In this document: piece after piece, positions 5,500 through 15,926 of the stretch
Layout: every line of letters starts with the position of its first letter
Position numbering within the stretch: the stretch's first letter is position 1
NCBI GenBank assembly: GCA_016124585.1
Contig: WGNL01000035.1
Coordinates: forward strand, 1 to 64,000
Origin: Bacteroidota bacterium
GTDB lineage: Bacteria > Bacteroidota > Bacteroidia > Chitinophagales > Saprospiraceae
Length of the DNA stretch: 64,000 nucleotides
Direction of reading: 5' to 3'
Position numbers and translations under genes: made by a program
The notes under the pieces: generated by a model
What the model saw: only the letters and a program-made list of their open reading frames with translations
What the model was told of the DNA's origin: nothing
Databases searched by the model: none

Positions 5500-7350
5500 G
5501 TGAAACAAATAAATACAAACAATGTCGGACAGCCCGTGCTGGCTGTTATTACAATCGGCTGTATATGTTTTATTGCCATTTTACAGGAGAAAACACCCGG
5601 TCTTGAACTGAATACCATTAAAAGTGGGATTTTGTGCAGCGACTGGCGGATATATTTTTATTTTTTACCGCTATTAGGATTAGCACTATACATTTGGAAA
5701 AGCATTAAGTTTACTAATCTAAAAAGAAAAGCAATTACAGAGCTACTGAAGGATTCAGAAATGCTCAAAACAGATATCTACACAAATATTGCTCATGAAT
5801 TTCGTGCTCCTTTAGCGGTTATCATAAGCATGGCAGAAGCATTAGACAGGCAATCACCTGGAACTAAAGAAACAATAATTAGAAATGCCCATAATTTATT
5901 AAATCTTGTAAACCAAATACTTGATTTATCTAAGCTGGGGGGTGGCATGATGGGGCTACGTTGGCAAAAAGGTGACGTGGTCAGTTACCTGAAAAGCATT
6001 AATGATAATTTTTATTATTATGCAGAAAAAAAACAAATTCAACTGATTTTTTATTCTGAAATTCCATTTCTTGAAATGGATATAGATATAGAAAAATTAC
6101 AGAAAATAATCAACAACCTTCTTTTCAACGCTTTCAAATTCACGCCCAAGGGCGGGCAAGTTGTAATCCATATCGGTGAAATTTCTTCGAAAAGCAATGC
6201 TTTGGACAAACTGCTGCAGGTTAAAATATCCAATACAGGACCAGGCATCCTGCCCGAGCACCTTCACAAGATATTTAATCGTTTTTACAGCGTTGACGAT
6301 GATGGCCCACATAACTCGGAGGGGACTGGAATTGGGTTGACATTGACCAAAGAACTCCTTGAACTTATGGGTGGAAGTATTTCGGTGCAAAGCCAATTAG
6401 GATTGATAACAGTTTTTAAGGTATTGTTGCCTATCCATAATTTGGCATCCGAAATATTTGTAGTTCCGAACTCATCAACACATCTTCACGACACAGGGTT
6501 TGAGGCAGAAAACCCGAAAATAGGGGCTTGGAATGACGGAACTCTAGCAATGAATGATGCCCCTAACATACTAATAATTGAAGATAATCCTGACAATGCC
6601 ATGCACATTCGGAATTGCTTAGAGGGACAGTTCAATGTGCTTTGGGCCGAGAACGGGCCTGTTGGCATTGAAAAAGCTCTGGACGCCTTGCCAGACATTA
6701 TCATTTGTGATGTCGTAATGCCACTAAAGGATGGTTTTGAAGTAACACAGTACTTAAAAAATGATATCCGTACAAGCCATATCCCCATCATTTTGATTAC
6801 TGCCAAAGCAGAGCTCGATTTCAAGATTCGTGGGCTCGAAACTGGTGCTGACGCCTACCTTTCTAATCCTTTTGACAAGAAAGAACTTCAAATAAGGGTA
6901 AAACAACTCATATCGACACGAAAAAAATTAAAAGAACATTATATGGGAAATATATCAGTCGATAATTCCCAAGTAAGCTCGAAAAAGCCAAGTACCGAGA
7001 CAAAAAAAAATATTCATATCGAAGTTGATTTTTTGGAAAAGGTAAATACAGTTATAGAAAAACACCTCACTGACACAAAATTTGAAATCCCAGAACTTAG
7101 CCGTGAACTTCAATTGAGCCATTCACAATTATTTCGCAAAATCAAGGCCGTGACGGGCAAATCAATTGCAGCATATATACGTGGATACCGATTGCAACGT
7201 GGCCGTGATCTGTTACAGAATTCCGACATGAACTGCTCTGAAGTTGCTTACGCTGTGGGCTTTTCAGATCCTTCGTATTTTTCACACATGTTTTTACAAG
7301 AATATGGCGAATCCCCCACGGAATACCGCAGAGAATTGTCTGCCAAATAA
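5500..7350 (+). CDS. Hybrid sensor histidine kinase/response regulator with AraC output domain
   Basis: The 616-residue one-protein two-component system starts at a GTG. Two membrane helices (about residues 13-29 and 48-66) flank only a ~20-residue loop, so there is no classical periplasmic sensor domain. HisKA carries NIAHEFRAPL with phospho-acceptor His99. The ATPase domain has the N box (NNLLFNAFKF) and the GTGIGLTLTKELLELMGG glycine box. A receiver follows (about 353-475) with Asp404 in IIICDVVMPLKDG, and an AraC-type double helix-turn-helix fills residues ~510-616 (GKSIAAYIRGYRLQRGRDLL, then AYAVGFSDPSYFSHMF). It should phosphorylate itself and bind DNA directly. The next gene has three 21-bp direct repeats at its promoter, a typical AraC-family site. 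I infer that it controls the peptide locus. Confidence 0.93.
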   Translation: MKQINTNNVGQPVLAVITIGCICFIAILQEKTPGLELNTIKSGILCSDWRIYFYFLPLLGLALYIWKSIKFTNLKRKAITELLKDSEMLKTDIYTNIAHEFRAPLAVIISMAEALDRQSPGTKETIIRNAHNLLNLVNQILDLSKLGGGMMGLRWQKGDVVSYLKSINDNFYYYAEKKQIQLIFYSEIPFLEMDIDIEKLQKIINNLLFNAFKFTPKGGQVVIHIGEISSKSNALDKLLQVKISNTGPGILPEHLHKIFNRFYSVDDDGPHNSEGTGIGLTLTKELLELMGGSISVQSQLGLITVFKVLLPIHNLASEIFVVPNSSTHLHDTGFEAENPKIGAWNDGTLAMNDAPNILIIEDNPDNAMHIRNCLEGQFNVLWAENGPVGIEKALDALPDIIICDVVMPLKDGFEVTQYLKNDIRTSHIPIILITAKAELDFKIRGLETGADAYLSNPFDKKELQIRVKQLISTRKKLKEHYMGNISVDNSQVSSKKPSTETKKNIHIEVDFLEKVNTVIEKHLTDTKFEIPELSRELQLSHSQLFRKIKAVTGKSIAAYIRGYRLQRGRDLLQNSDMNCSEVAYAVGFSDPSYFSHMFLQEYGESPTEYRRELSAK

Positions 7351-7381
7351 TAGCAAGCCAATAAATACGCTTCATCAATCA

Positions 7382-7443
7382 TTTTGACCGATAATTCAAA
7401 GTTCTTGACCGATAATTTAATATTCTTGACCGATAATTCATTG
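7382..7443 (+). promoter_or_regulatory. Three 21-bp direct repeats, probable AraC-type operator
   Basis: TTGACCGATAATT[CT]A occurs at 7384-7398, 7405-7419 and 7426-7440, exactly 21 bp (two helical turns) apart. The third copy is followed at once by the TTG at 7441-7443 that serves as -33 element. Direct repeats at 21-bp spacing next to the promoter are the hallmark of AraC-family activator sites. The regulator encoded immediately upstream ends in an AraC domain. Confidence 0.75.
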
Positions 7444-7472
7444 CCTTTTGGGTGAAGAAGCACTCATATTTG
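7441..7472 (+). promoter_or_regulatory. Promoter of the PatA/PatG-like protease gene
   Basis: TTG at 7441-7443, 21 bases, then CATATTTG at 7465-7472. The Bacteroidota consensus is TTG-N19-21-TAnnTTTG, so the -7 element has one mismatch (C for T), as expected for an activator-dependent promoter. The transcript would start near 7479, leaving a leader of about 200 bases before the ATG at 7680. Confidence 0.6.
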
Positions 7473-7679
7473 CAGCAACAGAGGTCGAAATTTATCCAAA
7501 GAAAAATTAGACCTCCTCTTAAAATTACGCTATCCCACACTTTATATTTTATTCAAAAAAACCTTCCCCAATACTTAAGACCATTTGGATTATATCTTGC
7601 AAGAACTTTTGTCAAGCCCCATTCTTATAAGGATTTTAGTAATTTTTGATTTGGACACTTGTCCTTAAAACCCTCCATA

Positions 7680-9866
7680 ATGAAAACAATTACAGGTTTG
7701 CATGCATTGCAAAAACTGAGCTTTGGCAATGCTAAGATTAAAATAGCTATATTGGATGGGCCAGTTGATTTAGCACATCCATGTTTTAACACTTTAGATG
7801 GTAAATTGTCTCCGTGGCCACCTCGCCAGCAAATATTGCCATCCTCCCCACCTAATTTAGCCTTGAATCATGGCACTGCAGTTGCTAGCCTTATTTTCGG
7901 GCAACCCGGTAGCGGAGTAGAAGGTGTTGCACCAGGTTGTAGCGGCATTATTATACCGATATATTCCGAAGATAATAAAGGCAATTTTTCATCTGCCTCA
8001 CAGGTCGAATTGGCAAAATCCATCATCATTGCGATGGAACAGGGGGCCAATATTATAAATATAAGTGGTGGGCAGTTTTCAAAGACTGGAGATGCTGAGG
8101 TTTTCCTCAAAGACGCCATTGACAAATGCCACAAAGCAGGTGTTTTGATTGTAGCCGCTGCCGGAAACGAAGGCTGTAGATGCCTCCATGTCCCAGCCGC
8201 TGACCGTCAGGTGTTAGCGGTCGGTTCAATAGATGAAAACGGAGAGCCAACATCTAGGACAAATTTCGGAGATGCCTATAAAATGAATGGGATATTAGCG
8301 CAAGGAAAGAACCTGTTGGCGGCGAGCCCCGGTGGCGGCAGTTTCTTGACAGGTGAAGGAACAAGCTATGCAACCCCCATCGTGTCTGGAATCGTGGGGC
8401 TTTTAATGAGCCTTCAAATACACGAAGGCATTGAACCAGATGCCTATATTATTAAATCAATCCTAGAGCAGACAGCAATTCCCTGCATTGGGAATGGCAA
8501 AACAGACTGTAGGCGTTTCTTACGTGGCAAATTAAACCTACCTGCCGCTATAGCCGCCATCATGGAAAATCCTGGTGTCCTGGCATCTGGCCTCGATTTC
8601 ACCACTCCCAACCGTATTATTATGGCGATGCCAGAACCACAAGCTCCAATTCATGATGAAATGGCGTTTTCGGAGGTAAAGGCAGCCGTAGTGCCCGCCA
8701 ACGAAGCCCCAGGCCCAAAACTGGCTGAGGGCTCCACTGAGGTGCCTAAAATGCTCGAAATCGATACCATTAAACCTAATGAGCAAATAATGGAGCCTCC
8801 GTCCGTCAATACTATAGATTCTCATCTAGAAGTTCAGCCTGCGGACGATGTGGCTGAGCCAATTATAGATAACCCACCCCTGAAACCATCTGATATGGAA
8901 ACTACAGTCAACGGAGAATCCTCTCCAATTATTAATAATTCAAAAAATTCTAAAATGGAAAACATGATTAATGAGCAGAACATTCCTACGGAAGTTGCCG
9001 ACCCTACCAACGCTGGACCTCAGGTTCTTACACCTTCTGGCGAAATTGACCCTTCTGATTGCGGTTGTGGAGGTGGCAAAGCTAGTGCCCCTGCACTCGT
9101 ATATGCCTTGGGAACCATTGGCTACGATTTCGGAAGTGAGTCTCACCGAGATTCTTTTGTCCAGTCAATGGGCGGCGGAGACCCACACAACCCAGCGGCG
9201 CTGCTAGACTATTTAAGCAAAAACCCATGGGGTGCTGAAGAGCTGATTTGGACACTGAATATTGACCAAACACCGATTTATTCTTTAATTCCAAATGGCC
9301 CATACAGTACAGCAGGCTACGAACGGCTCCGTCATTTTTTACAGGACCAACAAAATGGCGCAATACAACGGATTTCAGTACCCGGCCTGACCAAAGGCTC
9401 TGCCACATTGCTAAATGGACAAAGTGTGTCCAATCTCTTTTTCCGTGTACGGGGAATGTATGCTTGGACAACAGAGGCTCTTGTCGGAGCTGCCACTACC
9501 GGTGCCAAAGGAACGTCAAAAGTATTGGCCGAAAATGTGGCCAACTTCTTGAACAGAATATACTATCAAATGCGCAACTTGGGTATCACAGCGGAAGAGA
9601 GGGCACTTAACTATGCCGCCACGAATGCATTTCAGGTGAGTACCGTATTTGCCTCTGCCCTCAAAGAAAACCTGGAGTTGAATGATATTTTCGCCACCAA
9701 AAGCCCAATATGCCGCCCTGGTTCCGACTGCTACGATGTAGTACTGAGCTTCTTTAATCCTAAGGAGCGCCTGACACAGGCTCGCAAAGAGTTCCGCTTC
9801 ACAATTGATGTAAGTGATGTCGTTCCGGTTACGGTTGGCGAGATTAGGACGTGGTCAGTATATTGA
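7680..9866 (+). CDS. PatA/PatG-family cyanobactin-like maturation protease (S8 subtilisin)
   Basis: The 728-residue subtilisin has a complete catalytic set: Asp26 (IAILDGPVDLAHPCF), His64 (NHGTAVASLIFGQ), oxyanion Asn163 (AAAGNEG) and Ser229 (GEGTSYATP). 'LDGPVDLxHPCF' and 'GVEGVAPGCSG' are characteristic of PatA/PatG proteases of cyanobactin pathways. A Pro/acidic linker (~305-455) leads to DPSDCGCGGG (457-466). A C-terminal domain of ~255 residues then matches the PatG C-terminal domain (LGTIGYDFG, LIWTLN, RGMYAW, FLNRIYYQMRNLG, ALNYAATNAFQ, FRFTIDVSDVVPVTVGE). No PatG-type oxidase domain is present, so the layout is PatA-like. No signal peptide is seen. The ATG at 7680 is preferred to an upstream TTG (7659). 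By analogy it removes leaders from the peptides encoded at 11236-13945. Confidence 0.9.
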   Translation: MKTITGLHALQKLSFGNAKIKIAILDGPVDLAHPCFNTLDGKLSPWPPRQQILPSSPPNLALNHGTAVASLIFGQPGSGVEGVAPGCSGIIIPIYSEDNKGNFSSASQVELAKSIIIAMEQGANIINISGGQFSKTGDAEVFLKDAIDKCHKAGVLIVAAAGNEGCRCLHVPAADRQVLAVGSIDENGEPTSRTNFGDAYKMNGILAQGKNLLAASPGGGSFLTGEGTSYATPIVSGIVGLLMSLQIHEGIEPDAYIIKSILEQTAIPCIGNGKTDCRRFLRGKLNLPAAIAAIMENPGVLASGLDFTTPNRIIMAMPEPQAPIHDEMAFSEVKAAVVPANEAPGPKLAEGSTEVPKMLEIDTIKPNEQIMEPPSVNTIDSHLEVQPADDVAEPIIDNPPLKPSDMETTVNGESSPIINNSKNSKMENMINEQNIPTEVADPTNAGPQVLTPSGEIDPSDCGCGGGKASAPALVYALGTIGYDFGSESHRDSFVQSMGGGDPHNPAALLDYLSKNPWGAEELIWTLNIDQTPIYSLIPNGPYSTAGYERLRHFLQDQQNGAIQRISVPGLTKGSATLLNGQSVSNLFFRVRGMYAWTTEALVGAATTGAKGTSKVLAENVANFLNRIYYQMRNLGITAEERALNYAATNAFQVSTVFASALKENLELNDIFATKSPICRPGSDCYDVVLSFFNPKERLTQARKEFRFTIDVSDVVPVTVGEIRTWSVY

Positions 9867-10104
9867 TACAGTCGCCTCCTGTTACTTTAACGCATTATCC
9901 CTAGTTAGGTCTTGTCTTGGTTTTTAGTTTCCATAGAACTTCATATGGACTTTAGCCAGCTATAAAGCTTGATATATGAGCACTGAGGTTGATGACTATC
10001 AACAGTATAATCATTCCTTTATGACAGTATCATGATAGCAGTTGGCAGAGGCATATTTTGTTCAAAGGAAACTAAATCCTTGACAAGCAAAAAAAGATAT
10101 TATT

Positions 10105-11073
10105 ATGCAATCATATCAAGGAAGTTTCGATTATCCCAAATTGGTCAAACAGTTGGAAGGCAAGGTTTTCCGTAGGACTTTCATCAAATCTATGGTTGGC
10201 ATTTACTCCGCTTCTATGACATTGAAATCATTTGAATATGGAGCACCCATCGCCAGCAGCAATATATATAGAAAATTTGTTTACAACAAATTTGGGCAGG
10301 TAGTACAAAAATATTATTTCGATGACAATGGTGCCTTGGAGATGAAAGAAAAATACAGTTTTGATAACAAGGGGAAAATCTTGCACAGTGAGTTCATAAA
10401 ATCCAATTCCTTTTTGGAAGAAAAATTTGAAAACAATGAGGATGGGAACGTACATATTTATCAATTGATAAATCCAATTTGGAAAACAGAGGGCAAGCAT
10501 AACAAACGGGAGGTTTATTCATTTGATAAACAAAGGCGAAAGGTCAAAAAAATAAGCTATGGCTTTTTAGGTTCCGTTGAATTAATTACGCATTACCTAT
10601 ATGAAGGTGATTCAGAAAAATACAGCTTCCGCCACGTTACCGACCCTGACGGCGAACTGATATTGACCTTGCTTTATACTTATGACAGCAAATTCAACCA
10701 GACTGGCTTGTACAGTTTTTTCCTCACACCTAGTGCCGTGAAAGACCTACTCAATAAGCAAAAAGATTGGAAATCTGAGAGCTTGTCAGCCAGCAATTGG
10801 GAGTATGACGCCAAGGGAAACGCAATTGGTTTTGTAAGTGATATAGCCGAACAATTGTTCCACTATAAATTCCAAAATGCTGACATGGGAGTCCCTAGAG
10901 GTGGACGTGTAGTCACGCAGCAATCCAAGTCAGAATTTGAACTTATCAATGGGAAATATTACTTAGTCAAAACCACTGAATACTGGCCAAAATTTGATGA
11001 GCCAAAAGAACTGAAAGAATACACCTATTTTGATAAAAGTGGAAAACAAATCTACCCGCCGCCCTCAAAATAG
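10105..11073 (+). CDS. Unknown YD-repeat-like protein with twin-arginine motif
   Basis: I cannot assign this 322-residue protein to a function. Residues 23-29 read RRTFIKS, a match to the twin-arginine consensus (RRxFLK), followed by a weakly hydrophobic stretch (SMVGIYSASMTL), so Tat export is possible although a 22-residue N-region precedes it. The rest is built of beta-rich units with Tyr/Phe-Asp-x-x-Gly turns (KYYFDDNGALEMKEKYSFDNKGKI quoted in part: YYFDDNGAL, YSFDNKGKI, WEYDAKGN, TYFDKSGK), resembling YD/RHS-like or MORN-like repeats. It sits between the PatA-like protease and the first precursor peptide, same strand, with ~240 bases upstream and ~160 downstream. A tailoring, export or immunity role is only suggested by position. 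Confidence 0.6.
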   Translation: MQSYQGSFDYPKLVKQLEGKVFRRTFIKSMVGIYSASMTLKSFEYGAPIASSNIYRKFVYNKFGQVVQKYYFDDNGALEMKEKYSFDNKGKILHSEFIKSNSFLEEKFENNEDGNVHIYQLINPIWKTEGKHNKREVYSFDKQRRKVKKISYGFLGSVELITHYLYEGDSEKYSFRHVTDPDGELILTLLYTYDSKFNQTGLYSFFLTPSAVKDLLNKQKDWKSESLSASNWEYDAKGNAIGFVSDIAEQLFHYKFQNADMGVPRGGRVVTQQSKSEFELINGKYYLVKTTEYWPKFDEPKELKEYTYFDKSGKQIYPPPSK

Positions 11074-11235
11074 CTTCGGATAAATCGGTTTTAGGGCGAG
11101 TAGTTGAAGGGCTTTAAAATCTCAAAATAATTCAAAAGATATTAGGTGTTTAATTGATGGTGATGAAATGGCATACATTCCATTTTCAGCAATTACCCTA
11201 ATAGCTTTATTTTTTCACTTTTAAATTTATTTATC

Positions 11236-11454
11236 ATGAATTTACCAAATTTGTCTGCACCAGTTGTAAGGACATCCTTTGCCACAGCAGGACATGAAGG
11301 CGTCATGCCTTCTGTGGATATTGGATGTGTTATCTCCAACTGCGGTTTGGGAGCCGTAAAATGCATTGCAGCCTATTTTGCGGGTGGATTACCAGCCGCA
11401 CTTGCGTGTCTAGGCAACGCTGCCCCAGCATGTATTGGCTGCTTTACCTCCTAG
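11236..11454 (+). CDS. Cyanobactin-like precursor peptide 1
   Basis: The 72-residue peptide has a Cys-free leader (1-26) and a core (27-72) with six Cys. The leader begins NLPNLSAPVVR, close to the cyanobactin PatE start (NxLPxxGxPVIR), and ends GVMPS, which matches the RSII-type protease site G-[LV]-[ED]-[AP]-S. The predicted core begins VDIGCVISNCG, is Ala/Gly-rich and hydrophobic, and ends ACIGCFTS. The PatE helix LAELSEEAL used by YcaO enzymes is missing, as is a C-terminal AYDGE-type site. Cleavage by the upstream protease is inferred. It could alternatively be a bacteriocin without modifications other than disulfides. Confidence 0.75.
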   Translation: MNLPNLSAPVVRTSFATAGHEGVMPSVDIGCVISNCGLGAVKCIAAYFAGGLPAALACLGNAAPACIGCFTS

Positions 11455-11562
11455 ATGAATAAGTTTATGCATTGTACACCCTTGGTACATTATTGAACTA
11501 TTTTATTGCTTCAATTAATTGGTGTCAAGCGATGTTCTCCGCAAAAACTTAATTACTGGATT

Positions 11563-11593
11563 TGCCTGTGTGTCCATCATGGACATGCAGGCA
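11563..11593. other. Stable hairpin between precursor genes 1 and 2
   Basis: TGCCTGTGTGTCC (11563-11575) pairs with GGACATGCAGGCA (11581-11593) over 13 positions, two of them G-U, around the loop ATCAT. There is no following T-tract, so it may be an RNA-processing or partial termination element that sets the ratio of downstream peptides instead of a true terminator. Confidence 0.5.
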
Positions 11594-11741
11594 TACAGTA
11601 AAATTTATGTAATCGCAACGATAGCTATAACCAAGGTTAGAAAAGAGGGCTAAAACTGTTTAGTTTATGACAATAAGGAAAGTTTGATAATGGCAAACAA
11701 TTGATTATTCATGATTTTTTAACCATCTAAATATTTTTAAA

Positions 11742-11963
11742 ATGAATCTACCAATTTTGTCAGAGCCAGTAATTCATGAATTTCTTGGCAAAGGTCACAC
11801 AGGGCATGTTAACCCATCATCTTGTGCCGGAGTGCCAACCAATATAATTGGCGCATGCTTCGGGGCCAATGGCCCGATACCAGGAAAATTTAACTGCCAA
11901 GCTTGCTGCGCTTTACGGGGCGCTATTTCATGGCAAGGAGGCGGCTACGCAGTAGCCTGTTGA
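11742..11963 (+). CDS. Cyanobactin-like precursor peptide 2
   Basis: The 73-residue peptide has the leader NLPILSEPVIH and an RSII-like HVNPS ending at residue 26. The core of 47 residues begins SCAGVPTNII and ends GGGYAVAC. Six Cys are all in the core, including a CxxCC-like cluster (NCQACC). The leader aligns position by position with peptide 1 (L3 P4, S7, P9 V10, P25 S26), although the cores share no similarity. This conserved leader with a variable core is the typical RiPP precursor pattern. An AT-rich gap of 287 bases with a hairpin precedes it. Confidence 0.75.
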   Translation: MNLPILSEPVIHEFLGKGHTGHVNPSSCAGVPTNIIGACFGANGPIPGKFNCQACCALRGAISWQGGGYAVAC

Positions 11964-12113
11964 ACCGTTTTAACTAAAGTGAGTTATGGCAAGCCCAAAC
12001 TGTTTATATTAAGCGCATACTACATTAATTATTACCTGTATGGTATTTATTGCCATAACTTACTTCTATCATCTTTTGCAACAATCATTTCATTCACACT
12101 AAATAATAAAACT

Positions 12114-12461
12114 ATGATTTTGCCAAATCAATCCTCGCCTATCATTCGGGGCTCAAAATCTTTTACTTACCATGATAATGCGGTCAACCCAAGCGGGTTG
12201 TTTTGTTCGCCATGCAAATCCATTATAGGTGCCGTAGGAAATGCGCTAATAGGAGCTGGCTGCGTAGAAGCTGTAGCAGCTTTTGAAGTCGCATGCAATG
12301 CTGCGCTGGACTTGATTCCCATAGTCGGCGAAGGACCATCAGAGATAGCATGCGGCCTTGGCGGAGCTGCTTTGGGCGTGGCATGCAAGGCGGCCGGAGG
12401 TACCGTGACAAAAGAAGTCATAACAGCAGCCCAAAATGCAGTATGTGGCTATTTCTGCTAA
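12114..12461 (+). CDS. Cyanobactin-like precursor peptide 3 (long, helical, eight Cys)
   Basis: The frame is open from 11979, but the ATG at 12114 gives the leader ILPNQSSPIIRG seen in the other precursors (and in PatE, LLPNQGAPVIRG), so it is taken as the start. The 115-residue product has AVNPS at 23-27 and a core of 88 residues that begins GLFCSPCKSIIGAVGNAL. The core carries eight Cys and alternates Ala/Gly-rich hydrophobic helices with small loops, ending AVCGYFC. Its layout recalls halocin C8-type antimicrobial peptides, also Cys-rich, helical and cut from a larger precursor; this is a pattern resemblance only. The gene lies only 50 bases upstream of the unknown 350-residue protein, so the two are probably cotranscribed. 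Confidence 0.72.
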   Translation: MILPNQSSPIIRGSKSFTYHDNAVNPSGLFCSPCKSIIGAVGNALIGAGCVEAVAAFEVACNAALDLIPIVGEGPSEIACGLGGAALGVACKAAGGTVTKEVITAAQNAVCGYFC

Positions 12462-12511
12462 ATGCCTATATCATCACCTTTTTGGCTTGGCCATTAAATC
12501 AATTTAATAAA

Positions 12512-13564
12512 ATGAAAAATATTCAAAGCGCAACTATTCCACCTGGATGGGTAGGCGGGTTTGAAGAATCAAACCCAGCATTTGCTTATCCGGACCCTAA
12601 TCTTTCATCATTGCCCATGTTGGACAACATGGCCAATATTGGATTGCTTCAACGCCAACAAGCAGTGAGATGGCCGGAATTCAGCTGGCAGACTATACCC
12701 GGAAATGAAAACTCAAGGTGCTTCCAAATGTTTGCACCTGATATTTCTAGACTTGGATACACGGACACAGGAAGGGTGTACTCAATTATTTGCCCACAGC
12801 AAGGAGCTTGCTCTCCAACCTTTGGTTGCCTAAACGTGGAAGTTACCGTAACTGGGCAGCGAGGTTGGGCAAACGAGACCGATCAGGAAATGGCAGCTGA
12901 TATGACTGTGGAGGGCAAGATTTGGTTCAGTCCCAGTTCACTAGAAAATTGGAAGACCATCTTACTGTGGAACTTATTCAACAGCCTCAACCTACCTTTC
13001 CCATCCGACAAAACCCATGCTATTAGGGTCACTACGCATTGCCCTGGGCTACCCGACCAGCCAATATTTTTTGTTCGTAAAGGTGAGACTACGCTGTTTA
13101 AAAGTCCAGCCTTTGCCCAGCATTATGATACGGCTTGGGCTATTGGGAACTTATCGGTAGAGATTGGGCCGATTTTGTCAACTGGAAACTCTATTGCCGA
13201 TGAATTCAATACGCTTGTGATGGAGATATTCAATTTCGCTAAAGGCAATATACTTCAAGCTGGAAATATCCTTACTTGGAATCTTTGGTTTCAACCACCC
13301 ACATTGGTGAACCAAGAAGAATGGAGAAACCATGCTGAAAAATGGAGGCAGTCAATTGATGCTGACCATGGAAGTCCCGATGGCAATGGTACTGAACCAA
13401 GATATTTTAATGGAGAACCATTTAATCCTTTTGGCGGAGATGGTGAAAAACACTTGCAAGCAGAAGAGGATAAAGTAAATGCTTTTATTAAAAAATATGT
13501 GAGCAAGGATGCCTTGAGAAAAGCCAAGTTGCCACGCAATGCTTTTCTGCTAATGGACAAATAG
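12512..13564 (+). CDS. Unknown 350-residue protein of the peptide locus
   Basis: No known domain was recognised. The frame is open from 12293 (423 codons), but the first 73 codons overlap peptide 3 in another frame, so the ATG at 12512 (MKNIQSATIPPGW) is preferred. There is no signal peptide or clear membrane helix. Notable segments are 'YSIICPQQGACSPTFGC' (Cys-x4-Ala-Cys-x4-Cys), 'VTVTGQRGWANETDQEMA' and several Trp-rich stretches (residues ~90-125 and ~140-160). The C-terminus is charged and helical (KHLQAEEDKVNAFIKKYV). Its place between precursors 3 and 4, 50 bases after precursor 3, suggests a locus-specific role such as tailoring, immunity or carrier. No catalytic motif supports a choice. 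Confidence 0.7.
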   Translation: MKNIQSATIPPGWVGGFEESNPAFAYPDPNLSSLPMLDNMANIGLLQRQQAVRWPEFSWQTIPGNENSRCFQMFAPDISRLGYTDTGRVYSIICPQQGACSPTFGCLNVEVTVTGQRGWANETDQEMAADMTVEGKIWFSPSSLENWKTILLWNLFNSLNLPFPSDKTHAIRVTTHCPGLPDQPIFFVRKGETTLFKSPAFAQHYDTAWAIGNLSVEIGPILSTGNSIADEFNTLVMEIFNFAKGNILQAGNILTWNLWFQPPTLVNQEEWRNHAEKWRQSIDADHGSPDGNGTEPRYFNGEPFNPFGGDGEKHLQAEEDKVNAFIKKYVSKDALRKAKLPRNAFLLMDK

Positions 13565-13681
13565 TTGGATTAAATACAGCCGATATTATTCCCATAACAT
13601 CTATACTCATGGTTATAGTATCAGTTTATCATCCAAATATATACTGACAAGTATTTTTTTAATTTTTTAAACCTAAATATC

Positions 13682-13945
13682 ATGAATTTACCAATTCAAT
13701 CACAACCCGTATTTCGAAATTATGCGCCTTCCATACAAATGGTATTGGCTGGCGGCATCAATCCATCTGCATGTGGCGGTTACAAGACTTGTGCCTCCAT
13801 GACCTGCAATGCCCAGACTTGCACCTCCTATGGAAAAACATTTTCCAACCCATTTAACGGGTCAACTGGAACTGGCGAGTGCTGCGCAAATATCTTTACC
13901 AGAAAAGGATGCTGCTGCCTGAATGGCCAAACGGTTTGCAAATAA
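13682..13945 (+). CDS. Cyanobactin-like precursor peptide 4 (ten Cys)
   Basis: The 87-residue peptide has the leader NLPIQSQPVFR and GGINPS ending at residue 29. The core of 58 residues begins ACGGYKTCASMTC and ends NGQTVCK. Ten Cys, all in the core, include CC and CCC clusters (GECCAN, KGCCCLNG), an unusually dense arrangement suggestive of a knotted disulfide or thioether-crosslinked product. Unlike peptides 1 and 3 the core is polar (Thr, Ser, Asn, Lys). A long hairpin (14009-14079) follows the stop codon. Confidence 0.75.
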   Translation: MNLPIQSQPVFRNYAPSIQMVLAGGINPSACGGYKTCASMTCNAQTCTSYGKTFSNPFNGSTGTGECCANIFTRKGCCCLNGQTVCK

Positions 13946-14264
13946 ACATTGCAGCTGAAGCATTATAAGTCTAATCACAGAAATTTAGAGATGAGCTTAT
14001 TTGAAGAAGTTGATGTGGTTTTTACAGGTTCATCAAGTCAGAAATTCACCAAACATCAACCTTTAACAACCACATCAACATCATTATACTTTATAATTTC
14101 AATTTAAGATTATCTCATTATTACTAACGTCCACGATGTTAGGCTGGGTTATAATGCAATCAATAAAATCAAATGAAAAAGTGGAGACCAGAAACCACTT
14201 ATAAAAACGGGGCGTCATTCCGAAAAGCCATACGAGTAGGAAATAACATTTAAACATTTTAATT
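13946..14264. other. Non-coding gap with 12-bp inverted repeat
   Basis: GTTGATGTGGTT (14009-14020) and AACCACATCAAC (14068-14079) are perfect inverted repeats separated by 47 bases, about 65 bases after the end of precursor 4. They could fold in the transcript as a 3' stabilising or terminating structure. The rest of the gap is AT-rich and probably holds the 5' region of the first AidA-like gene. No gene is seen. Confidence 0.5.
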
Positions 14265-14684
14265 ATGGCATTAGGTATTAATCCGAGTAGCTGTACGACT
14301 TTTGTTCAAATTTGGGTGGATGTCAATGACCTCACCGTCAACCAAATTACTGGCTGTTATGCCGTTGACAATATGGTGGCCAACGGGAGTACAAATGAAG
14401 GGAGCAACAGTTTGATTACCGTTGTTTCTCCCAATACTAAAATCTGTTGGCAGGTTTTGCCAATTGATCCACAGTATGCAGGAACCCTTTCCATTACTGC
14501 AATTGATGCGCCGAGTGGTTGGGCAACACCACCCGCAGCTTACTCGGCAAATGACGACACATGGACTGGCCAGGTAGGCCCATCCTCCACCGGAGGTTCT
14601 ATCGTCCAGGATGTTACTGTGAATTTCAATCAAGGTTCACTGAGCTGGACGGGAACGCTGCCAGTTAGTATCAAATTCAAGTAA
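14265..14684 (+). CDS. AidA/PixA-like protein 1, with RSII-like N-terminus
   Basis: The 139-residue protein is a divergent AidA/PixA (inclusion-body family) relative. It shares with its two neighbours the order 'VxVDxxxV...CYAVDNMVANGSTNEG...VVSP..KICWQVLPIDP'. Known AidA/PixA proteins are small beta-rich cytoplasmic or secreted proteins, regulated by quorum sensing in Burkholderia/Ralstonia and forming inclusions in Xenorhabdus; their biochemical function is not established. The N-terminus MALGINPSSC repeats the GINPS-x-C motif of precursor peptide 4, which is odd and may tie this protein to the local protease. Six bases after the start codon the sequence already enters this motif, so no LPxxSxPVxR leader is present. 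Confidence 0.65.
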   Translation: MALGINPSSCTTFVQIWVDVNDLTVNQITGCYAVDNMVANGSTNEGSNSLITVVSPNTKICWQVLPIDPQYAGTLSITAIDAPSGWATPPAAYSANDDTWTGQVGPSSTGGSIVQDVTVNFNQGSLSWTGTLPVSIKFK

Positions 14685-14858
14685 TTCAGCTTGAAAAAGG
14701 TTTTATTTAACAAAGTTAGTGGAGCTAAATAAGTTGTCATTGAATATATACTTTTATTGCCAGATAAATAAACTCAATCTTATGCAGAGAGCAAAGCTGA
14801 AATAGCAAAAGAGCAATGAAAAATTATTTTGTCATCACTAACATAAAAATTTATTAAA

Positions 14859-15311
14859 ATGAGCAATACAACCAATTTTGCTAATGTAATAATCAATATT
14901 GCCGTTGACGCTTCTCAAGTATATGGGACGCAGCCAGGCATGTACAAAGGTAATGGCATATATATGATGGACAATAATGCTGCTAGCGGCAGTTCAGGTG
15001 AAGGAAATTTGGAGCTGAGCTCAGTAGCACAGGTTGGGCAATCGGTCGGGTTCAACGTCTTCGTAATCAATGAGAAAATGGGCAACGGCGCTGCTGCTGT
15101 CATCGAAGGCTTTGAGTTATCCAATGGCACTAATGTGTTTGGAAATCAAGGCTGGCCAAGTGAGCAACCAGCTGGCAGCACAATCCAATGGCTGGGCTAT
15201 GTGAAAACAGCAGGCCAAATGACGTATCAAATTAAGATTGGTGTCAAGAGTTCAGCACAATTCCCAATGCAATATTATACTTGGGATCCTTTTTTCAACA
15301 CACAGTCATAA
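14859..15311 (+). CDS. AidA/PixA-like protein 2
   Basis: The 150-residue protein shows the clearest AidA/PixA pattern of the three: 'VIINIAVDASQVYG', then 'GNGIYMMDNNAASGSSGEG', 'VGQSVGFNVFVINEKMG' and a C-terminal 'YQIKIGVKSSAQFPMQYYTWDPFF'. In this family the central YMxDN...GSxGEG and GQxVxWxVxxINP segments are conserved. There is no signal peptide and no Cys. The gene is followed by a hairpin (15333-15362) before the third copy. The three genes lie in tandem on one strand with gaps of 174 and 126 bases and differ strongly in sequence, so the duplications are old. Confidence 0.75.
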   Translation: MSNTTNFANVIINIAVDASQVYGTQPGMYKGNGIYMMDNNAASGSSGEGNLELSSVAQVGQSVGFNVFVINEKMGNGAAAVIEGFELSNGTNVFGNQGWPSEQPAGSTIQWLGYVKTAGQMTYQIKIGVKSSAQFPMQYYTWDPFFNTQS

Positions 15312-15332
15312 TTTCTTGCAGTATTATTGAGC

Positions 15333-15362
15333 ATAAGTGGGTTGAATATTCAGCCCACTTAT
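15333..15362 (+). terminator. Hairpin between AidA-like genes 2 and 3
   Basis: ATAAGTGGG (15333-15341) pairs perfectly with CCCACTTAT (15354-15362), with GAATATTC in the loop able to extend the stem. It is followed by TTAAAATTTATG. The weak T-tract suggests partial termination. Confidence 0.5.
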
Positions 15363-15437
15363 TTAAAATTTATGATGCTTCGATTTAAGCAAACTTTGAG
15401 AATTATTTTCAAAACAACAAGCTGCCAAATGGAATAA

Positions 15438-15926
15438 ATGCAATTTTACCCCAACAATATGGTCGTCCGTCAAGCCCAATCACAGGCAATGCCAGTGGCC
15501 GGGGCAGAATTAACACCCAATATCTATATTACGATAGCAGTGGATGTTGCCTATGTGATAAGCCAACAAGGGCAATCTATTTCCAAAGGCATCTATTTGA
15601 TGGACAATATGATAGCTAATGGAAGTATGGGGGAAGGGACTATGGAAATCACTACAATTGGCAATGCTGGCCAAGTAGTTGGCTGGAATATTGTGCCCAT
15701 CAACCCCTACCTGAACAACCAAACTGTTGAAATCACATTCATTCAAATATGCCTTGGAACTGTTTTTGGCTCTCCGCCAGTCCAAGCTGATGGAAATGGC
15801 TTTTCATGGGTAGCACAATTGATATATTCGGGGAAGCAAGCCTATGCTATTCAAATAAAAGTCACAGAAGGGCTAACACCAGTAAGCTATTATGTCAATT
15901 GGGAAGCTATCATGGTTTCCATATAG
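15438..15926 (+). CDS. AidA/PixA-like protein 3
   Basis: The 162-residue AidA/PixA relative carries 'NIYITIAVDVAYVISQQG', 'GIYLMDNMIANGSMGEGTMEI', 'AGQVVGWNIVPINPY' (each quoted in part) and a C-terminal 'QAYAIQIKVTEGLTPVSYYVNW'. It has a ~28-residue N-terminal extension that starts QFYPNNMVVRQ and is loosely similar to the LPNxxxPVVR leader of the precursor peptides; this may be coincidence. It is the last recognisable gene of the locus; about 820 non-coding bases follow. Confidence 0.73.
   Translation: MQFYPNNMVVRQAQSQAMPVAGAELTPNIYITIAVDVAYVISQQGQSISKGIYLMDNMIANGSMGEGTMEITTIGNAGQVVGWNIVPINPYLNNQTVEITFIQICLGTVFGSPPVQADGNGFSWVAQLIYSGKQAYAIQIKVTEGLTPVSYYVNWEAIMVSI

Follow-up and report, generated by a model that had tools for sequence, protein, structure and literature searches.

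A PatA-type protease locus encoding cysteine-rich peptides with cyanobactin-like leaders in a Bacteroidota genome

The locus and its genes

The window (the whole stretch of DNA analysed, 64,000 nucleotides) carries at 5500..15926 a gene set that an earlier note had described as a hybrid kinase/AraC regulator, a protease, four short genes, two proteins without a family and three AidA/PixA-like proteins. The regulator, the protease, the short genes and the two family-less proteins were all found, all on the + strand, and the observation of this gene set is confirmed. The locus is AT-rich only in a relative sense, its GC content being 41.1%, where the remainder of the window has 47.7%.

5500..7350, + strand: hybrid regulator with histidine kinase, response-regulator and AraC parts (Pfam HisKA, HATPase_c, Response_reg, HTH_18)
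7659..9866, + strand: PatA-type subtilisin with a C-terminal PatG_D/PatG_C domain, putative leader peptidase (Pfam Peptidase_S8, PatG_D, PatG_C; TIGR03895)
9042..9068, + strand: linker motif EIDPSDCGC, a site-like xxPS with CxC after it, between the protease and PatG_D domains (translation, linker statistics)
10105..11073, + strand: protein without a Pfam family above cut-off, directly 3' of the protease gene (homologues in L082, L083, L084)
11236..11454, + strand: precursor P1, 72 aa, site GVMPS, core 46 aa with 6 Cys
11742..11963, + strand: precursor P2, 73 aa, site HVNPS, core 47 aa with 6 Cys
12114..12461, + strand: precursor P3, 115 aa, site AVNPS, core 88 aa with 8 Cys
12512..13564, + strand: 350-aa protein without a family above cut-off, between P3 and P4, linked to the system by position only
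13682..13945, + strand: precursor P4, 87 aa, site GINPS, core 58 aa with 10 Cys
14265..14684, + strand: PixA/AidA-like protein (NF049870, E 2e-11, below cut-off)
14859..15311, + strand: PixA-like protein (PF12306, 22.2 bits against a cut-off of 21; NF049870, E 5e-13, below cut-off)
15438..15926, + strand: PixA-like protein (NF049870, E 1e-14, below cut-off)

The hybrid kinase/AraC protein is likely the locus regulator. In L067, L078 and L145, too, genes that read by eye as AraC-like or response-regulator-like precede the protease gene. The protein at 10105..11073 is kept in the clade of the window protease (homologues at E 8e-32 to 2e-58), and the one at 12512..13564 has no family above cut-off in Pfam, NCBIfam or PHROGs and no homologue among the other loci.

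The protease is, as had been proposed, a PatA/PatG-type subtilisin with the PatG C-terminal domain: it scores 608 bits against the curated TIGR03895 cut-off of 421. Its closest solved structures are the PatA-type proteases 4h6v, 3zxx and 4h6w (E 8e-74 to 5e-71); the PatG DUF structure 4uvq matches at E 5e-59 and the PatG macrocyclase structure more weakly, at E 2e-39. D33, H71, S236 and N170, which we take from subtilisins to be the catalytic residues, are invariant across six aligned Bacteroidota proteases. By eye the protease has no evident signal peptide, so that it probably acts in the cytosol. The earlier note had reported neither YcaO nor a macrocyclase, and the genome bears this out: it contains no PF02624 match and a single TIGR03895 match at E up to 1e-20, all 15 candidates having been scored, no second PatA/PatG-type protease was found, and the cyclase tail is absent from the four window precursors. 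In the linker, a site followed by CxC occurs in 42/83 proteases, against 0.3 in shuffled sequence, which suggests that the protease may process itself there.

The leader said to be shared by the four short genes, LPxxSxPVxR, is present in all four ORFs, except that the second (P2) ends in PVIH rather than PVxR. The PatE-like leader consensus is LPxxGxPVIR, and a motif like it is found in 4/4 precursors, one with H for R; the cyanobactin leader model TIGR03678 matches three of them below cut-off (E 0.05-0.22) and the fourth not at all. The sites at the leader ends are exactly those quoted earlier. P3 was listed from a GTG at 11979, and its leader itself starts at the ATG at 12114. Searches of Pfam, NCBIfam and PHROGs gave no family above cut-off for P1-P4, NCBIfam names 0/7 precursors from other loci, and the P2 and P3 families have no meaningful match among PDB sequences. 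Cys, Ser and Thr abound in the cores, which also contain CxC and CxxC motifs.

Relatives of the precursors lie in distant bacteria. P1 is 37-42% identical to peptides of the Acidobacteriota loci L118 and L140, and P2 is 61% and 63% identical to precursors of an Oxalobacteraceae (L146) and an Acidobacteriaceae (L150) locus; all six Cys of the P2 core are invariant in six sequences from Bacteroidota, Acidobacteriota, Pseudomonadota and one cyanobacterium. For P3, relatives occur in Terriglobia (L134, 40%) and in Bacteroidota (L065, 27%), and AlphaFold, given a three-row alignment, returned an all-helical model of five helices at low confidence (pLDDT 51.6). A likeness of P3 to halocin C8 or saposins was considered and is backed by no search result.

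The three proteins called AidA/PixA-like all match NF049870 (MakCD) at the E-values given, each below cut-off, and PF12306 is just above cut-off for one of the three. The first begins MALGINPSSC, which carries the site motif without a leader, and in Shewanella hanedai (L137) its homologue starts with MANIQPSEC; the third also has a homologue there (E 8e-37). In this Shewanella locus, PatA is accompanied by a P2-type peptide and two PixA-like genes, and their relative order matches that in the window. The start of the third PixA-like protein (MQFYPNNMVVRQA) could be read as a decayed leader, but the Shewanella homologue has no such segment, and this reading was given up. Among the literature matches listed, in the parts of the sources available, no role of PixA-like proteins alongside PatA peptides is described.

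Related loci in other phyla

The comparison covers 86 loci including the window, for which 80 of 421 protease relatives were kept; L154, taken to be the same contig as L066 because their lengths are equal, stays in the 86-locus counts and is left out of the tree, linker and 70-locus counts. A leader matrix scored 162 short ORFs in these loci against 5 in the same DNA reversed, a contrast that is partly circular because the matrix was trained on regex matches from the same loci. Away from the neighbourhood of the protease, 793 kb contain only 8/162 matches, and 150/162 are on the protease strand. Among the 70 YcaO-less loci with room, 54 have a leader peptide within 4 kb downstream of the protease; the other 16 have no matrix-scoring leader there, and in four of them divergent leaders were seen by eye. 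This count leaves out five loci with less than 1.5 kb downstream (among them L086, where a leader ORF is present) and L124, where BLAST found no protease.

The earlier note had held that related proteases never found beside such peptides would speak against it. In 8/8 distinct Bacteroidota genomes in which a PatG_C protein was found, leader-like peptides adjoin the protease, their leaders being divergent, as judged by eye, in four (G406, G661, G703, G763). Further Bacteroidota loci have leader ORFs (L083, L084, L148) or a divergent one seen by eye (L145); the sequence of L085 ends after the protease. The arrangement is no speciality of Bacteroidota: it also occurs in bacteria of several other phyla. 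Once matches from the nine YcaO loci, off-strand matches, within-locus duplicates, X-containing sequences and the GANYNDP type were removed from the 162, YcaO-less loci gave 129 leader peptides in 57 loci from 8 phyla. The site motif [VIL]x[PA]S is found in 67/129 of these, against 12.6 in shuffles, and a looser form in 85/129, against 36.4, being absent from 44/129.

Among ORF clusters of 45 aa and longer, the protease alone occurs in nearly all loci (85/86). YcaO was called in 9/86 loci by a custom HMM built from 20 PF02624 matches, and 77/86 show none in the stretch available, which reached up to about 10 kb on each side and often stopped at contig ends, so that some of the YcaO-less loci may have a YcaO gene further off. 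No shared exporter or disulfide catalyst was read among the 45 largest ORF clusters. A C39-like start was seen in an ORF of two loci (L110 and L135, by a crude signature), and ORF cluster 18, from four cyanobacterial loci, reads like a C39-type transporter; none of the ten window-locus proteins scanned with Pfam matched the C39 family. In a 78-row protease tree (rows under 500 aa left out), the proteases of all nine YcaO loci sit in one 18-row clade and the window protease lies apart from it, in a Bacteroidota clade. The tree is quick and midpoint-rooted, with 27/75 branches weakly supported, and therefore does not give the order in which cyanobactins would be derived.

Cores with at least three cysteines have an even number in 81/84 cases (61/64 after similarity reduction; 51/51 outside cyanobacteria). 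Among the remaining short ORFs in these loci the figure is 82/215 (131/272 before 57 precursors were taken out). The even numbers of the cores point to disulfides. They would also suit metal binding by Cys pairs. Since 27/129 cores are Cys-free, some of them short and helix-like, disulfides are not the sole output. In a genome of the same genus as the window, a divergent leader-like segment and a GILPS site precede a Kunitz/BPTI core (PF00014, E 2.6e-15; best PDB chain, 7e-25). The core contains 7 Cys rather than 6, and the leader retains LPIQA without PVxR. One further core weakly resembles ICK toxins (PDB matches, E 0.001-0.04). A Pfam scan of 76 Cys-rich cores gave nine families, each matched by one core and all weakly, the best being Toxin_7 (E 0.0018).

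A proposed pathway and its alternatives

We propose, with a probability of roughly 0.8, that PatA-type leader removal releases peptides that are rich in disulfides and probably antagonistic; that they are cleaved, exported and active is a prediction from sequence. Each peptide would be translated with the cyanobactin-like leader; the subtilisin, probably in the cytosol, would cleave after the xVxPS site and free a core of 46-88 residues with 6, 8 or 10 cysteines, which would fold with all cysteines paired on reaching an oxidising place. Heterocyclisation, oxidation and macrocyclisation would not occur. The peptides would most likely target other cells, in the manner of bacteriocins, inhibitors or toxins; the hybrid kinase/AraC protein would probably govern the locus, and the PixA-like proteins would form part of the same module. 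The sequences themselves show the anatomy of the locus, the conserved leader and site, the association across phyla and the even cysteine numbers; we infer cleavage by this particular protease, disulfide formation, export and biological activity. Counting against the proposal are the lack of a common exporter among the clusters read, the precursors with no site motif, the Cys-free cores, the loci with no scoring leader, the 7 Cys and divergent leader of the Kunitz protein, the fit of even Cys numbers to metal binding, and the weak matches to the cyanobactin leader model. The earlier reading, of protease-matured Cys-rich peptides that use a cyanobactin leader without a heterocyclase, is supported.

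Alternatively, an enzyme whose gene lies elsewhere in the genome might modify the cores, by lanthionine, sactionine, azole or other chemistry, and the system would then be an ordinary RiPP whose cluster is split. Their wealth of Cys, Ser and Thr and the two proteins without an assigned family (10105 and 12512) would suit such a scheme, which we nevertheless consider unlikely: these chemistries need no paired cysteines, yet the numbers are even in 81/84; YcaO is absent from the genome; and the protease is the sole ORF cluster common to nearly all loci. Still less probable are intracellular metal-binding or storage peptides of metallothionein type, in which the leader would set location rather than mark a propeptide. 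The CxC and CxxC motifs fit them, as does the leaderless xxPSxC in the protease linker and at the N-terminus of the first PixA-like protein, so that this motif may be more than a cleavage site; however, the BPTI-fold core and the weakly ICK-like one indicate extracellular disulfide folds, and Cys-free helix-like cores carry the same leader. That the locus is a cyanobactin cluster from cyanobacteria, decayed by loss of PatD, PatF and PatG and without a working product, seems very improbable. Its protease and leader are indeed homologous to those of cyanobactin loci, but the protease belongs to the Bacteroidota clade with its catalytic residues intact, P2 is kept at 61-63% with betaproteobacterial and acidobacterial precursors, and most loci show no YcaO in the stretch examined.

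Beyond the proposed release of disulfide-rich peptides, it is tempting to speculate, at somewhat less than even odds, that PatA and the LPxxSxPVxR leader together form an ancient route, spread across bacteria, to disulfide-rich peptides of defence or attack, among them Kunitz- and knottin-like folds that are familiar chiefly from animals, and that cyanobactins are a derived branch that added YcaO and the macrocyclase. The LPxxxxPVxR half of the leader would then be the part that belongs with PatA, whereas LAELSEE would belong with the heterocyclase, and the protease would cleave itself at its own linker site before the C-terminal domain. If the proposed release of peptides holds, the family that NCBI models call cyanobactin maturation protease would mark a wide and largely unannotated class of disulfide-rich peptides in bacteria, a possible origin of cyanobactins would be suggested, the N-terminal stretch conserved in their leaders would gain a role, and the PatA/PatG C-terminal domain and its linker would become testable.

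Comparison with known systems

Class II (unmodified) bacteriocins have their leader cut by a C39 peptidase/transporter. They follow the logic proposed for the window system, with a leader, a peptidase and a disulfide-bonded unmodified core; their leader and peptidase are unrelated to those seen here, no C39 gene was read in the window locus, and the window-type system extends across phyla. The window leaders also end in xVxPS or xINPS, unlike the GG-type leaders of double-glycine (C39) bacteriocins. The label RiPP, used in the earlier note, fits only if disulfides plus leader removal are counted as modification.

With cyanobactins the window system shares the PatA-family subtilisin with PatG_D/PatG_C and an N-terminal leader segment resembling LPxxxxPVxR, and lacks their YcaO and PatG macrocyclase. 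The LAELSEE-type element, which is the heterocyclase recognition element, occurs in 0/129 YcaO-less precursors (those of the window included) against 8/12 in YcaO loci, and the C-terminal cyclase tail in 4/129 against 9/12. The x-P/A-S site resembles the cyanobactin cleavage site G(L/V)E(A/P)S, as given in the available part of PMC10885120. Cyanobactin cores have 3-5 residues if linear and 7-20 if heterocycle-free (PMC4663559, available part), whereas those of the window run to 46, 47, 88 and 58 residues beyond the site, with Cys predicted to pair. By the tests made, the window locus is not a cyanobactin locus: macrocyclase, cyclase tail, LAELSEE element and short core are all missing.

Absence of YcaO alone is not new, because the anacyclamide, prenylagaramide and piricyclamide clusters have no heterocyclase, and a disulfide is possible in a piricyclamide, according to the same part of PMC4663559. 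Among the titles and abstract openings listed, none described PatA-type loci that lack YcaO as well as the macrocyclase, which is weak evidence of absence. The heterocyclase-free cyanobactins resemble the window system in lacking that enzyme; as far as the available part of the source goes, theirs are 7-20-residue macrocycles made by a G protease, in contrast to the long cores of the window, where a second such protease was not found. The unusual part is the absence of macrocyclase and tail together with cores of 46-88 residues whose cysteines are predicted to pair.

Composition of the locus and linkage of leader to protease

Family searches recovered every element that the earlier note had listed for the locus at 5500-15926, all encoded on the + strand: one hybrid kinase/AraC regulator, one PatA-type protease, four short leader-bearing genes, two function-unassigned proteins and three PixA-like proteins. 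The protease is indeed a PatA/PatG-type subtilisin with a PatG C-terminal domain: it scores 608 bits on TIGR03895, the curated PatA-type model (cut-off 421), and contains Peptidase_S8, PatG_D and PatG_C domains. Its closest solved structures are PatA-type proteases (E 8e-74 to 5e-71), with the PatG macrocyclase at 2e-39. It is the single TIGR03895 protein of this 6.6 Mb genome, and the genome's four leader precursors, with 6, 6, 8 and 10 Cys in their cores (the residues after the xVxPS-like site), all lie inside the locus.

PatG_C is rare in Bacteroidota, being found in 2/395 genomes drawn across the phylum, 7/396 of the window's order and 2/14 of its genus. The neighbourhood of protease and leader peptides, which the earlier note had proposed to count in Bacteroidota, holds in all eight distinct PatG_C genomes of these pooled samples, four of which (G406, G703, G763 and G661) have divergent leaders recognized by eye only. 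More widely, 421 relatives of the protease were found among 84,980 species genomes; 80 of these loci were kept and, with five further loci and the window, give the 86 examined here. A 10-residue leader matrix retrieved 162 short ORFs in the 86 loci vs 5 in reversed DNA, a contrast that is partly circular because the matrix was trained on regex matches from the same loci. The position of the leaders near the protease is evidence independent of this training: 150 of the 162 share the protease strand, 69 begin ≤500 bp downstream and only 8 fall outside the near zone, across 793 kb. A leader peptide occurs ≤4 kb downstream in 54 of the 70 YcaO-less loci with room, and divergent leaders are visible by eye in four of the 16 matrix misses (L066, L078, L080 and L145).

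A leader without its heterocyclase

YcaO lies within the stretch examined (up to ~10 kb on each side of the protease, often ended by the contig) in 9/86 loci, and any YcaO occurs in 24/49 whole genomes with protease relatives. A quick tree built from 78 proteases, from which neither root nor direction was inferred, places the nine YcaO-linked rows together in one 18-row clade (SH-aLRT 99). The remaining nine members of this clade were scored as YcaO-less, and none of the 60 rows outside it, which represent several phyla, has YcaO in the stretch examined. The window protease sits in a 5-row Bacteroidota clade (support 100).

The earlier reading of a cyanobactin-like leader and protease without heterocyclase is supported: a family search of the window's whole genome found no YcaO, and the LAELSEE-type heterocyclase recognition element is present in 0/129 precursors of YcaO-less loci vs 8/12 of YcaO loci. 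Cyclase-like tails follow the same trend (4/129 vs 9/12), two of the four being in L110, which by reading looks like a macrocyclic cyanobactin cluster. In view of these counts, the leader appears to have two parts, an LPxxxxPVxR half associated with the protease and a LAELSEE half associated with the heterocyclase. A conserved GANYNDP-like small protein, which we take to be perhaps PatB/PatC, is encoded near the protease in all nine YcaO loci and in L101, L103, L110, L111 and L136; it bears an LPxxSxPVKR-like leader itself.

The protease linker, joining subtilisin and PatG_D, contains a site of the kind seen in the precursors. Its last 60 residues contain [VIL]x[PA][SQ] in 77/83 proteases (28.5 after shuffling; 17-25 of 80-82 in four control regions of the protein), [VI]xPS in 61/83 (6.9 after shuffling) and a site with CxC directly behind it in 42/83 (0.3 after shuffling); the corresponding counts in YcaO loci are 9/9, 6/9 and 0/9. 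In G661, subtilisin and PatG_D are on separate genes, the second with ISPQCGCG near its N-terminus. The simplest reading of these motifs would be self-cleavage or a built-in pseudo-substrate. A simple leader-binding role of the C-terminal domain is disfavoured by the NMR result that isolated PatG-DUF showed no precursor binding (PMC4259220).

Core peptides and accessory genes

An even number of Cys is found in 81/84 cores with ≥3 Cys from the 129 YcaO-less precursors (p 5e-21 vs one half), and in 61/64 after similarity reduction, compared with 82/215 for the remaining short ORFs in these loci. All three odd cores come from one cyanobacterial locus, L091; non-cyanobacterial cores are even in 51/51 cases. 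Among 11 extra precursors counted by hand, mostly ones that the matrix had not detected (five in L066, two each in L078 and L145, one each in L080 and L148), 10 are even and the odd one is a Kunitz core with seven Cys. Azoles, lanthionines or sactionines would not enforce Cys pairing; disulfides do. Cores free of Cys, which by reading look like short amphipathic helices, exist in Streptomyces L119 and cyanobacterial L101 and L103; therefore disulfide peptides are not the pathway's sole output. Leader peptides with short cores of 0 or 2 Cys occur in actinobacterial loci, from Streptomyces and relatives (L119, L112, L116, L127, L184; one on a plasmid). Strongly acidic cores with 0 or 1 Cys occur in leader peptides of L083 (6063-6278), L084 (13258-13488) and L152 (4452-4661), possibly as partners of the Cys-rich peptide of the same locus.

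Some cores resemble known folds. In L066, from the window's genus, a 93-residue precursor (15438-15719) starts with MNLPIQAK, in a leader-like segment missing PVxR, and continues with a GILPS site and a Kunitz/BPTI domain (PF00014, E 2.6e-15; best PDB chain, 6.8e-25). The cyanobacterial L123 core weakly matches small toxins (Xt3a, E 0.001; tau-theraphotoxin and agelenin, ~0.01; tachystatin-B2, 0.02). The core pattern of P2, the window precursor at 11742..11963, is common to precursors of Oxalobacteraceae, Acidobacteriaceae, Shewanella, Symploca and an alphaproteobacterium, with all six Cys invariant. Because the proteases of these loci are scattered over different parts of the tree, the peptide genes probably moved horizontally. 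A 740-residue protein of L148 (12437-14659) has a leader-like start, MKNPPLAEPVRR, and a weak, below cut-off OmpA match at its end; the leader may thus be fused to large proteins too.

Shewanella hanedai L137 shares with the window the relative order of PatA, P2-type peptide and two PixA-like genes, which suggests that the PixA-like genes are module members in two phyla. The N-terminus of the first PixA-like protein reads MALGINPSSC in the window; its Shewanella counterpart begins MANIQPSEC. The 10105 protein is kept in three relatives of the window's protease clade; a search of the other loci found no relatives of the 12512 protein. Features near the peptides include:

Window 14265-14300 and L137 12950-12980: PixA-like N-termini, xxPSxC site motif without leader
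L067 15065-16397: gene resembling an endonuclease/exonuclease/phosphatase protein
L143 13291-14163: gene with a weak, below cut-off Scabin-like domain
L078 10089-11399: gene resembling a class 3 lipase

Relation to cyanobactins

Annotations in public plasmid records call two of these proteases cyanobactin maturation protease and a third, from Streptomyces, S8 family serine peptidase; precursors in the two records with matrix matches are 'hypothetical protein' or absent from the PLSDB gene table, itself incomplete. The earlier designation, a cyanobactin-like RiPP locus, holds for the protease, which is of cyanobactin type, and for the resemblance of the leader, but by the tests applied the locus falls outside the cyanobactins and its product is read as unmodified disulfide peptides. 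Judged from sequence, the locus would use cyanobactin parts to release such peptides, unmodified and disulfide-bonded, by way of a leader peptidase.
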